This document shows, piece after piece, positions 198 to 25,142 of a DNA stretch of 34,340 bases. The stretch covers positions 1 to 34,340 of the forward strand of contig CACYGK010000012.1 of assembly GCA_902774005.1 (NCBI GenBank). The letters are read 5' to 3'. The position numbers and the translations under genes are program-made. The DNA comes from an uncultured Bacteroidales bacterium (GTDB taxonomy: Bacteria; Bacteroidota; Bacteroidia; Bacteroidales; Bacteroidaceae). The notes under the pieces are model-generated. The model made no database searches. It worked only from the letters and a program-made list of their open reading frames with translations, and was not told where the DNA came from. Positions within the stretch are counted from its first letter, which is position 1. Every line of letters begins with the position of its first letter.

Positions 198-1787
198 TCA
201 GAAGTCAATCTGCATATAGTCGATATCGGGCATGGGACCGTTATCGTTGTATAGGCGGATGGTGTTTTGTCCCTTATTAAGATTCAACGTAAGACGGACG
301 GAGCCGTCGCGGAGATCATCGCTTTTGAAACGTTGTCCCTTGCCGTTGTTTGCAGATACGAAGAGGGTGGCTTTATTGTCGAATGAACTGCAACGGATAG
401 TGACATTATATTCACCATCATGCTGTACGAATACATCGCGCCATTGGAGGTCGTTCTCGGGTGCATTTCCCAAGTTGACTGCTTTCATCCCTCCGCTGCA
501 TTCAGGGTCGGAAGTGTAGTAGGCTGTTCCGACAGCAAGTGGATTGGATAGTTCCTGATAGCAGCTCAGATATGCTGTCTCTGCTTCGTAGAGTGTACGA
601 GGCAGGCGTTGTTCAGCTTCTAAGCGATAGATGGCACAGCCGTGGGGAGGGAGCTCTGTTGAAAGTTGAGAGTTGAGAGTTGAGAGTTGAGAGTTGAAAA
701 GGTCTTTTGCTTTTACATTTCCACCCAGTTGGAGGTCGGAGAGGGATATGCTTACAGTACGGACGGAGTCGGTAGGGTTGTAAAGGGCTACGGCACGTGT
801 GGTGGAGTTACGGTTAAGGATGTCTTTTACGAGGACGTATGTTCCAGCTGACTGGTCGTGCTGTACGACGTATGCCTGCAGTCCGAGGGGGTCTTGGTTG
901 ATGGCAATCAGGTCGCGGTTGGTGAGCAGAGCCAAGGTAGCAGGTTTCAGTTTGGTGAGGTCGCAGCCGATGAGCAAGGGACTGGACATGATGCACCAGA
1001 TGGCGAAGTGGGTACGGTCTTCGATGTCGGAAAGTGTGCGTCCCACTTCGAGCATATCCATGTCGTTATAGTGTCCGTCTCCTGCGTAGGCAGAGAGGTA
1101 GAGGTTCTGCTGTATGATGTCCTTGACGGACGACCATCGGGGAGATATGTCATGGGACATGCGCCATGAAGATGCGACGTCGCTGACCCATGTGCCAGGG
1201 TAGTCCCAACGGCATACATTCATGCGGACATCGGTGCGTCCTGTGGCATCGATGGCACGACGGATGGCTGTGTAGCGTTCTTTGGGACTGAGTGCCAGAT
1301 GGTCGCTGTTGCGGTTGGCACTGCCTCCGCAGAAGTCGATCTTGATGAAGTCGAAACCCAGTTCTCGGAAAAACATGTCGCAGTCCTGCCGGTCGTGACC
1401 ATAGAGTCCGACACCTTGTGCTATGGAATCTTTGTCGTACCAGTTGCCGCAGGTGTTGGCTCCGGCATCGCTGTAGATACCGGCTTTCAGTCCGAGAGAA
1501 TGGATGTAGGAAACGACGGACTGCAGTCCGCGTGGAAAACGGGTGGGATGAATGAGCAGACGTCCTGTCTGAGGGTCGCGTCCGCCAAAGAATCCGTCAT
1601 CTATATTAATATATGTGTAACCCACGTCGTGCAGTCCCTGACTCACCATTGCATCGGCCTGACGCATGATGAGCGAGTCGCTGATGTTGATGCGGTAGGT
1701 GTTCCACGAACTCCATCCCATGGTAGGCAGTTCGATGGCAGAGAGAAATGAGGAGTACAGGAAAAATAGCAGAAAAAAACGTCTCAT
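198..1787 (-). CDS. Secreted GH27 alpha-galactosidase with C-terminal CBM
   Basis: Likely a periplasmic or outer-membrane-exported exo-enzyme that removes terminal alpha-galactose; beta-L-arabinopyranosidase activity is an alternative within GH27. Residues 1-18 form a signal peptide. The catalytic barrel opens with PTMGWSSWN (21-29); the nucleophile is expected at D151 in KIDFCGG and the acid/base at D213 in SHDISPRW. A C-terminal beta domain follows to about 390. Residues about 398-529 (YEAE start, DIDYMQIDF end) resemble a CBM6/CBM35-type carbohydrate-binding module. Residues 365-377 (NSQLSTLNSQLST) are encoded by a heptanucleotide array and look foreign to the family. The start codon overlaps the GH78 stop by 4 bp, so it is the last gene of a translationally coupled operon. 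No Cys lipobox is seen. Confidence 0.93.
   Translation of the reverse strand: MRRFFLLFFLYSSFLSAIELPTMGWSSWNTYRINISDSLIMRQADAMVSQGLHDVGYTYINIDDGFFGGRDPQTGRLLIHPTRFPRGLQSVVSYIHSLGLKAGIYSDAGANTCGNWYDKDSIAQGVGLYGHDRQDCDMFFRELGFDFIKIDFCGGSANRNSDHLALSPKERYTAIRRAIDATGRTDVRMNVCRWDYPGTWVSDVASSWRMSHDISPRWSSVKDIIQQNLYLSAYAGDGHYNDMDMLEVGRTLSDIEDRTHFAIWCIMSSPLLIGCDLTKLKPATLALLTNRDLIAINQDPLGLQAYVVQHDQSAGTYVLVKDILNRNSTTRAVALYNPTDSVRTVSISLSDLQLGGNVKAKDLFNSQLSTLNSQLSTELPPHGCAIYRLEAEQRLPRTLYEAETAYLSCYQELSNPLAVGTAYYTSDPECSGGMKAVNLGNAPENDLQWRDVFVQHDGEYNVTIRCSSFDNKATLFVSANNGKGQRFKSDDLRDGSVRLTLNLNKGQNTIRLYNDNGPMPDIDYMQIDF
658..699. repeat. Heptanucleotide array A, six units, inside the GH27 gene
   Basis: Six consecutive 7-bp units on the plus strand: GTTGAAA, four GTTGAGA, GTTGAAA. 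On the coding (minus) strand the unit reads CTCAACT, which has no stop in any frame. It encodes NSQLSTLNSQLST in the C-terminal beta domain. The total length of 42 bp keeps the frame, but gain or loss of one unit would shift it. The same unit in the same coding orientation occurs in prmC. Confidence 0.95.
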
Positions 1788-25141: not shown

Positions 25142-25142
25142 T
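25122..25142. repeat. Heptanucleotide array G at the prmC stop codon
   Basis: Three AAATAGT units, followed by degenerate related sequence (CAAATTGTAAATAAC) up to 4 bases before the next ATG at 25161. The prmC stop TAG (25139-25141) is within the third unit. Confidence 0.85.

Follow-up and report, generated by a model that had tools for sequence, protein, structure and literature searches.

Heptanucleotide tandem arrays in a herbivore-gut genus of Bacteroidales: probable birth and death by 7-bp slippage under purifying selection in genes

Background

A period of 7 bp is the favoured long period in many genomes, and where genomes are rich in long repeats, heptamers have mostly been reported as the most frequent class; slippage has been proposed for these long simple sequence repeats (LSSR; Mrazek 2007, as reported in PMC4679880 and PMC4692102) and has been tied to the contact length of the polymerase (PMC4679880, PMC4692102). 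Heptanucleotide repeats have been described in Calothrix and other cyanobacteria, Xanthomonas, Nostoc and the Beggiatoaceae (PMC4679880, PMC4692102). The present analysis deals with seven such arrays in a stretch of 34,340 nucleotides (positions 1-34340 of contig C12, hereafter the window) from the genome of an uncultured Bacteroidales bacterium (G000; 2.12 Mb in 80 contigs, 80% complete), and with similar arrays across its genus. Such arrays probably come and go through slippage in steps of 7 bp, while purifying selection acts in genes.

Paludibacter and Porphyromonas gingivalis are both members of the Bacteroidales. Repeats of the unit TAACTGA are known from the Beggiatoaceae, cyanobacteria and a few Bacteroidetes; sets of them are recorded in five Bacteroidetes, some of which have other heptamer repeats as well, and Paludibacter is listed with two sets (PMC4679880). 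The short tandemly repeated repetitive (STRR) sequences of cyanobacteria, which have a 7-bp period, can form hairpins, and effects on transcript stability or translational coupling have been suggested for them (PMC2670836). The P6b hairpin of the Nostoc trnL intron is itself built of heptanucleotide repeats that pair with each other (PMC3488679). Heptameric GGGNATC repeats occur in Xanthomonas and Nostoc (PMC4692102), and BrickBuilt, a minisatellite miniature inverted-repeat transposable element of P. gingivalis, has 23-nt units between fixed ends (PMC4596501).

As in the LSSR accounts, the 7-bp period is favoured in the window's genus, but here many units coexist in one genome and a single junction between genes carries different units in different species. 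The arrays share with the TAACTGA repeats the short intergenic form, often just before start codons, the reverse orientation inside open reading frames (ORFs) and the 7-nt indels between related strains (PMC4679880). The TAACTGA repeats stand in forward orientation before starts (MacGregor 2015); the present arrays are in excess there but have no strand preference, nor does a single unit dominate across the genus. TAACTGA itself is not among the 58 arrays listed for the window's genome. The 7-bp repeat is also common to the STRR and P6b sequences, and the inverted heptamer hairpin of P6b resembles an element of congeneric genomes that is described below. The window's genome, as far as it was searched, yielded no hairpin of this type, however, and the congeneric hairpins have a conserved core and no match in Rfam at gathering thresholds (nine hairpin sources searched). 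GGGNATC repeats are likewise heptameric and intergenic and lie between the same gene pairs, with variation of length and sequence between close species; the quadruplexes proposed for them would not be expected in the window arrays, because the units are not G-rich. BrickBuilt is similar in that it lies between genes and combines tandem repeats with inverted ends, and different in that the inverted arms of the congeneric hairpins are themselves repeats. The arrays are a known kind of repeat in a new lineage, in which the diversity of units and the use of different units at one junction are the new features.

Heptanucleotide arrays in the window

Tandem Repeats Finder (TRF) reports seven period-7 arrays in the window (Table 1), at the loci listed in an earlier note on this DNA, and a weak, purine-rich eighth row of the same period at 31108-31130 (score 32). 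An exact scan for at least 2.5 copies found six arrays of period 7 and none of any other period from 2 to 30, compared with a mean of 0.01 at period 7 under a third-order Markov null. The array at 9017 is imperfect and lies outside this count of six. All seven arrays are genuine and well beyond chance expectation. They comprise five distinct units: the arrays at 658 and 24791 have one unit in opposite orientations, as do those at 16317 and 22753. The genes that they flank or occupy are unrelated housekeeping and sugar genes.

The three arrays inside genes (658, 3497 and 24791) have units that are stop-free on the coding strand, and the four stop-bearing arrays overlap the ends of ORFs, both as the earlier note had described. 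The repeat at a gene end does supply the stop codon, and effects on C-termini, also proposed there, are visible. The further statement that the repeat fills the spacer to the next start was too loose: between array and called start there remain 4 bp at 16317, 1 bp at 22752 (before the aldo/keto reductase gene), 18 bp at 25122 and 8 bp at 9017 (9047-9054). The last of these arrays makes up most of the spacer between the acyltransferase gene and ispD, which begins at 9055.

Table 1. Positions and settings of the seven window arrays and of two congeneric hairpins
Feature	Position	Strand	Copies	Setting
(AGTTGAG)n array	658..699 (TRF 658-697)	+	~5.7	Inside alpha-galactosidase ORF 198-1787, minus strand; coding-strand reading FNSQLSTLNSQL
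(TGACCAT)n array	3496..3525	+	~4.3	Inside alpha-L-rhamnosidase ORF 1784-4348, minus strand; coding-strand reading FNGQWSMV
Imperfect (AGTTAAA)n array	9016..9046	+	~4.4	Gives stop of acyltransferase ORF 7833-9029
(AGTTAGG)n array	16317..16337 (TRF 16317-16335)	+	2.7	rbfA end (16323), before LolC/E-like permease gene
(CTAACTC)n array	22752..22780	+	4.1	Codes argH last residues and stop (22774)
(CTCAACT)n array	24790..24832	+	6.1	Inside prmC; codes LNSQLSTLNSQLST immediately N-terminal to IISNPPYI segment
(AAATAGT)n array	25122..25155	+	4.7 (3 exact, to 25142)	prmC end (25141) and spacer to next gene (25161)
L119 hairpins	L119:1930-2040 and 2513-2614

Period census in the genus

The census of the window's genome covered 434 kb, about 20% of the whole (20 fetched stretches and the window). 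Seven of the 20 stretches were picked for their AGTTGAG matches, which biases the sample; the other 13 amount to 260 kb. Exact arrays of at least 2, 2.5 and 3 copies number 120, 54 and 27 at period 7, compared with 27, 11 and 4 at period 6 and 20, 10 and 10 at period 8, and no array of period 9-11 reaches 2.5 copies. The exact counts in the unselected 260 kb are 16 at period 7, 9 at period 6 and 7 at period 8. At a TRF score of 45 the 434 kb contain 43 arrays of period 7, followed among short periods by period 8 with 11, and 29 arrays with a period above 15. Two copies of AGTTGAG give 70 overlapping matches in the whole genome, and three copies are present in 15 of the 61 genomes searched, all of the window's genus and G000 among them. 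The longest exact array of the sample, 93 bp of AGTTGAG units (L031:17270-17362), lies inside an ORF of 509 residues.

Period 7 is the commonest short period, by exact counts, in 8 of the 12 sampled genomes of the genus, so that here and in the window's genome it is over-represented relative to other periods, as it is in LSSR. It ties with period 6 in G034 and falls below it in G002, G010 and G018; the rates per 100 kb range from 0 (G018) to 18.8 (G016). Genomes of other families yielded two period-7 arrays in 248 kb. Among loci fetched by similarity, 42 genus-like ones (at least 66% identity to the query reductase, plus L147) hold 42 period-7 arrays in 349 kb, compared with 2 in 306 kb for 38 named Bacteroidales loci of lower identity; the genus-like set may reach beyond the genus, because its record titles include Candidatus Minthosoma, Colivivens and one Roseburia. 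Metagenome-derived records of red deer, roe deer, rumen and similar samples, which have Bacteroidaceae, Prevotellaceae or Bacteroidales as their titles, are the closest relatives with a name, and the genus is a Bacteroidaceae/Prevotellaceae group known from metagenome-assembled genomes (MAGs) of the rumen and herbivore gut. The window arrays sample a process that is found in much, not all, of this genus. Bacteroidales outside the genus are almost without such arrays.

Differences between relatives

At orthologous sites relatives can have an array of another length or unit, or none at all. Over 14.8-32 kb of the window, G067, the sister species, is colinear with it at about 89% identity. Its argH and prmC-end arrays have kept their length, with point differences; its rbfA array is 6 bp shorter than the one at 16317, and it has an array at 20312 where the window has none. 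The array inside prmC (24790) is absent from G067, G007, G027 and G003.

The junction between argH and the aldo/keto reductase gene (argH-AKR) carries CTAACTC in the window and in G067, TGCATAA and AACTCCT in G007, TTTCARG in G027 and GTAAATR in G003, and at the prmC end some congeners have arrays of other units. In each of the five closest genomes compared, both junctions hold 7-bp (once 8-bp) repeats, with the unit changing. Across 28 genus-like argH-AKR loci a lag-7 signal is present in eight, and there is none at the threshold used in the other 20.

When 43 array clusters of the window's genome were queried against the G067 sample, 11 were placed (2 of 29 in the reverse direction). One array exceeds its counterpart in G067, where diverged heptamers remain, by 91 bp (13x7); one site differs by 71 bp, one holds another unit in G067, and the others have diverged. 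At two in-gene sites the differences, 6 and 9 bp, are divisible by 3. Closer pairs are found among the congeners. Between G025 and G016 (95.3% identity, 17.5 kb) the indels within aligned blocks, an unaligned stretch of about 2.2 kb being left out, measure 1, 1, 1, 3, 7, 7 and 21 bp, and both 7-bp indels fall within heptamer arrays. The same two genomes also differ by 70 bp (10 units) in the length of a CTGTCAA array, and only one of them has a TCTAAAC array. L119 and L120 (96.4% identity) differ by one 7-bp unit within an array. Unit number thus varies between close relatives, as in LSSR, in pairs of congeners other than the window's own species.

The PrmC loop of G067 (L082 near 3400-3460) carries a G/C-rich near-palindrome of the CTCCCC...GGGGGAGG type in place of the window array. 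The same type occurs in the spacer at the prmC end of G003 (L086 near 4140-4240), where the window has a 7-bp array, and similar sequences lie in other congener spacers. PrmC of G016, G025, G012, G013, G019, G034, G036 and G064 (L087-L094) has insertions at two or more loops, which include the heptapeptide QLSTVNC in G016 and G025 and low-complexity runs in others. Open frames of prmC in the genus, measured from stop to stop, reach at least 407 residues at the longest among the matches listed.

Placement and the coding filter

Placement was analysed for 113 array clusters in 1.35 Mb from 13 genomes. Tandem spacers hold 73 of them, divergent spacers 8 and convergent spacers 7; 23 lie inside genes and 2 at edges. 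Uniform placement would put 101.7 clusters inside genes, so that the arrays, like LSSR, are mostly intergenic. Most in-gene clusters (18 of 23) are stop-free on the coding strand, 16 having a stop on the other strand only and two having none. In the remaining five the unit contains a sense stop, but the called ORF continues through it; four of these are arrays of 18-20 bp and one is a 48-bp cluster of two units. Because 7 and 3 share no factor, a stop-bearing 7-bp unit blocks every frame within three copies (about 21 bp), and a stop-free unit codes one heptapeptide in all frames. The heptapeptide LNSQLST recurs in the alpha-galactosidase and PrmC of the window and in several other unrelated ORFs. 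Three in-gene arrays elsewhere (L043:19735-19753, L218:16702-16719 and L220:1203-1226) are located in N-terminal segments that look like signal peptides and read as hydrophobic peptides such as FTFIFSLFTF.

The earlier note had proposed that placement obeys a stop-codon rule. Overlaps with gene ends, 19 with a sense stop and one without, are not more frequent than under random placement (20/70 versus 25.7 +- 3.1). Free arrays in tandem spacers (n=53) have the stop in the sense orientation in 16 cases, antisense in 16, in both in 18 and in neither in 3, and thus show no strand preference. Two more specific ideas were rejected. The stop codon does not appear to be a selected property of the unit, since 44 of 50 distinct units contain one on one strand or both, versus a mean of 40.8 and a maximum of 47 in composition-matched shuffles; possession of a stop is mostly a matter of base composition. 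Nor do the arrays behave as three-frame stop cassettes, for which the sense orientation is predicted in free spacers. The depletion in genes, the stop-free units of in-gene arrays and the equal orientations of free arrays together imply that array position follows from coding constraint. The 'stop-codon rule' is this coding filter, not a separate rule.

Origin of the arrays

The most probable explanation, to which a probability of roughly 0.8 can be given, is that heptanucleotide arrays are continually born and lost through slippage in steps of 7 bp, and that purifying selection acts on those in genes. One to two imperfect local 7-mers would serve as the seed, which would grow or shrink 7 bp at a time, most likely because strands slip during replication. 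The units would diversify by point mutation, and a later expansion could fix a different unit variant at the same place. Selection would remove arrays that cut genes or shift the frame. A stop-bearing unit would survive only between genes or across a gene end, because all three frames are closed by it, and the stop-free orientation could persist within a gene as long as the reading frame downstream stays intact.

The bias in favour of period 7, its distribution in the genus, the 7-bp steps between congeners, the difference of unit per junction between species and the coding filter are matters of observation. We infer slippage as the copying step, the direction of the length changes and whatever reason there is for 7 rather than 6 or 8. 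The suggestion of the earlier note that one process makes 7-bp arrays, of which only tolerated ones are left, is supported by the lead of period 7, the differences between sites and the depletion in genes. Within the fifth of the genome covered, period 7 is not on a par with other periods, and the arrays are not invariant by descent.

A number of observations weigh against slippage in 7-bp steps as a complete account. TRF gives no period-7 array in G002, G010 and G018 (80 kb each). The lead of period 7 is narrow in the G067 sample (850 kb), with 31 exact arrays of period 7 compared with 26 of period 6 and 10 of period 8; a TRF score of 45 gives 33, 1 and 9, respectively, and 19 arrays of period 14. 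Lag-7 periodicity outside exact arrays is weak (0.286-0.293 versus 0.276-0.278 at other lags). Only the 91-bp and two zero differences among the 11 sites placed in G067 fit pure 7-bp steps, and the remaining differences (6, -6, -1, 3, 9, 11, -12 and 71) mix in other indels. G002 and G016 (88.1% over 10.9 kb of aligned blocks) are separated by indels of 1 and 3 bp only. A 7-bp indel is found in only one of seven close pairs (L119/L120), alongside indels of 3, 6, 6 and 10 bp, and the pair L130/L133 has two 8-bp indels. Placement adds two further points. In tandem spacers 26 of 70 arrays end within 10 bp of a start codon, versus 17.3 +- 2.9 expected from random placement within the same spacers, distances to starts being approximate because the called gene starts are. 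Clusters are also denser in tandem spacers, with about 0.9 per kb (73 in 80.9 kb), than in divergent (0.31; 8 in 25.7 kb) or convergent ones (0.35; 7 in 20.2 kb).

The excess near starts, which echoes the TAACTGA repeats of the Beggiatoaceae (PMC4679880), and the density in tandem spacers therefore leave room for a function, with a mild effect on expression; they may also reflect avoidance of promoters and terminators. On the model of what has been proposed for those repeats and for cyanobacterial STRRs, the arrays might be functional cis-elements, either landing sites for a protein or ribosome in mRNA leaders or spacers for translational coupling. Both placement statistics would fit such a role, as would the presence of repeats at the argH-AKR junction and the prmC end in all five nearest genomes despite the change of unit. 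This explanation is nonetheless fairly unlikely, because the free arrays are without strand preference, the units at a site are not conserved, 20 of the 28 genus-like argH-AKR loci lack the lag-7 signal, and the window arrays stand beside or in genes that have nothing to do with one another.

Hairpins in congeners

Many congeners (L119; L241-L290) have dispersed hairpins, each with a conserved core, TTGCCATGCGGCTTG, between two arms that consist of inverted 7- or 8-bp arrays. In L119 and L120, for example, two junctions each consist of (AGTTAGG)n, then GTTGCCATGCGGCTTG, a loop and (CCTAACT)n. The 16-base core gives 56 matches with at most one mismatch in 18 of 45 genomes of the genus, and is absent at this threshold from the window's genome, G067, G007 and G027. 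At 35 of 50 fetched core loci the complementarity of the arms exceeds that of all 30 shuffles; the 50 represent 49 distinct sites, one having been counted twice (L245 and L257), and some matches look genic. The arm units read by eye include AGTTAGG, AATGAGG, TGTACAA, TAATTCA, AACAATT and the 8-bp AATTGAAA. In alignment A1, which contains 21 of 24 located elements (L262, L283 and L288 were left out), 16 of 23 pairs covary, but this figure overstates their independence because the elements were pre-chosen for arm complementarity; the unselected figure is the 35 of 50.

A covariance model has matches at E <= 0.001 in 38 of the 45 genomes, with more than 30 in 10 of them. These counts are lower bounds, because 97 candidates were scored per genome, and some matches may be other palindromes. 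On the same footing G000, G067, G007, G027, G018, G023 and G031 have no match; the best E in the window's genome is 0.33, among 150 scored of 955 first-look candidates. Outside the genus the model matched 8 of 149 genomes of the order at E <= 1e-4, several on both strands, and these matches are probably generic palindromes. A search of the open-licence PMC literature found no description of heptamer-armed hairpins for Bacteroidales. An association with the REP-associated tyrosine transposase (RAYT) was considered and rejected: a Y1 transposase (PF01797) is above cut-off in 14 of 45 genomes of the genus and in neither G013 nor G001, which have 46 and 38 model matches. The ends of integron attC sites are RYYYAAC...GTTRRRY, and the hairpin arms, by eye, read GTT...AAC inward, in the opposite order.

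Miniature transposable and other mobile elements are marked by conserved terminal inverted repeats with a target-site duplication; the arms of the hairpins are complementary by unit but variable in sequence. The left arms of 23 elements have a lag-7 match of 0.66 versus 0.24-0.37 at other lags. Complementarity between the arms is 0.634 at register 0, 0.631 at -7 and 0.487 at +7 in 23 of 34 elements with an assigned right arm, the other 11 having been dropped for a long loop or a shifted or unclear right-arm start. Base-by-base mirroring is not supported, since register 0 exceeds both +7 and -7 in 7 of the 23 elements and is tied in 6. The near-equality of registers 0 and -7 means that the arms pair by unit more than base by base. 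Template switching is known as a maker of hairpins (PMC8794818).

It is conceivable, if unlikely, that the genus has a sequence-tolerant and period-specific process that writes units of 7 nt (sometimes 8 nt), in solo arrays as well as in the two hairpin arms around the core, so that the window arrays would be solo products or orphan arms. If so, the sequence of the stem would be free while its arms share a unit, and the choice of unit would spread from arm to arm and from site to site. Another explanation, in which solo arrays are orphan arms left after loss of the core and one arm, is quite unlikely. It can draw on the 35 core sites with complementary arms and the breadth of the model matches in the genus, on the unit AGTTAGG common to hairpins and window arrays, and on the units at the boundaries of the arrays at 16317 and 22752 (GGAGTTGA and TCAACTCC), which by eye resemble the arm ends of L241 and L277. 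However, core and model matches are both absent, at the thresholds and numbers of candidates given above, from the window's genome, G067, G007 and G027, and a search within 200 bp for an inverted partner (10 exact bases) found none for the 83 arrays of the 434-kb sample. Moreover, complementarity by unit rather than by base allows that the arrays came first.

In the window itself, AATCCCCTAGGGATTATTATT-like units that contain an internal palindrome form a 21-bp tandem array at 26006-26092, in the spacer after an ORF that ends at 25934.

Remaining alternatives

In-gene arrays exist and congeneric arrays step by 7 bp, which could suggest contingency loci, in which the number of units would switch the reading frame and turn proteins on and off. 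This is very improbable. The host ORFs stay open through the arrays, the two in-gene differences between the window's genome and G067 keep the frame, PrmC would be an unlikely protein to switch, and no switched-off copy was seen among the few compared. An assembly artefact, to which the derivation of the 42 genus-like records from metagenomes (by title) might point, is extremely improbable, given that the arrays recur at orthologous junctions in MAGs of several projects with point differences in the flanks, and that the other Bacteroidales loci, many of them also MAGs, are nearly array-free.

Implications

For the question of why repeats of 7 bp are favoured in some bacteria, the genus offers more than 40 species, with many units per genome. 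Because orthologous sites differ in length, unit or presence, the rates of birth and death are measurable for each unit and each period. These arrays further illustrate how repeats become the tails and loops of proteins, LNSQLST, which is obtained in any frame, being an example.

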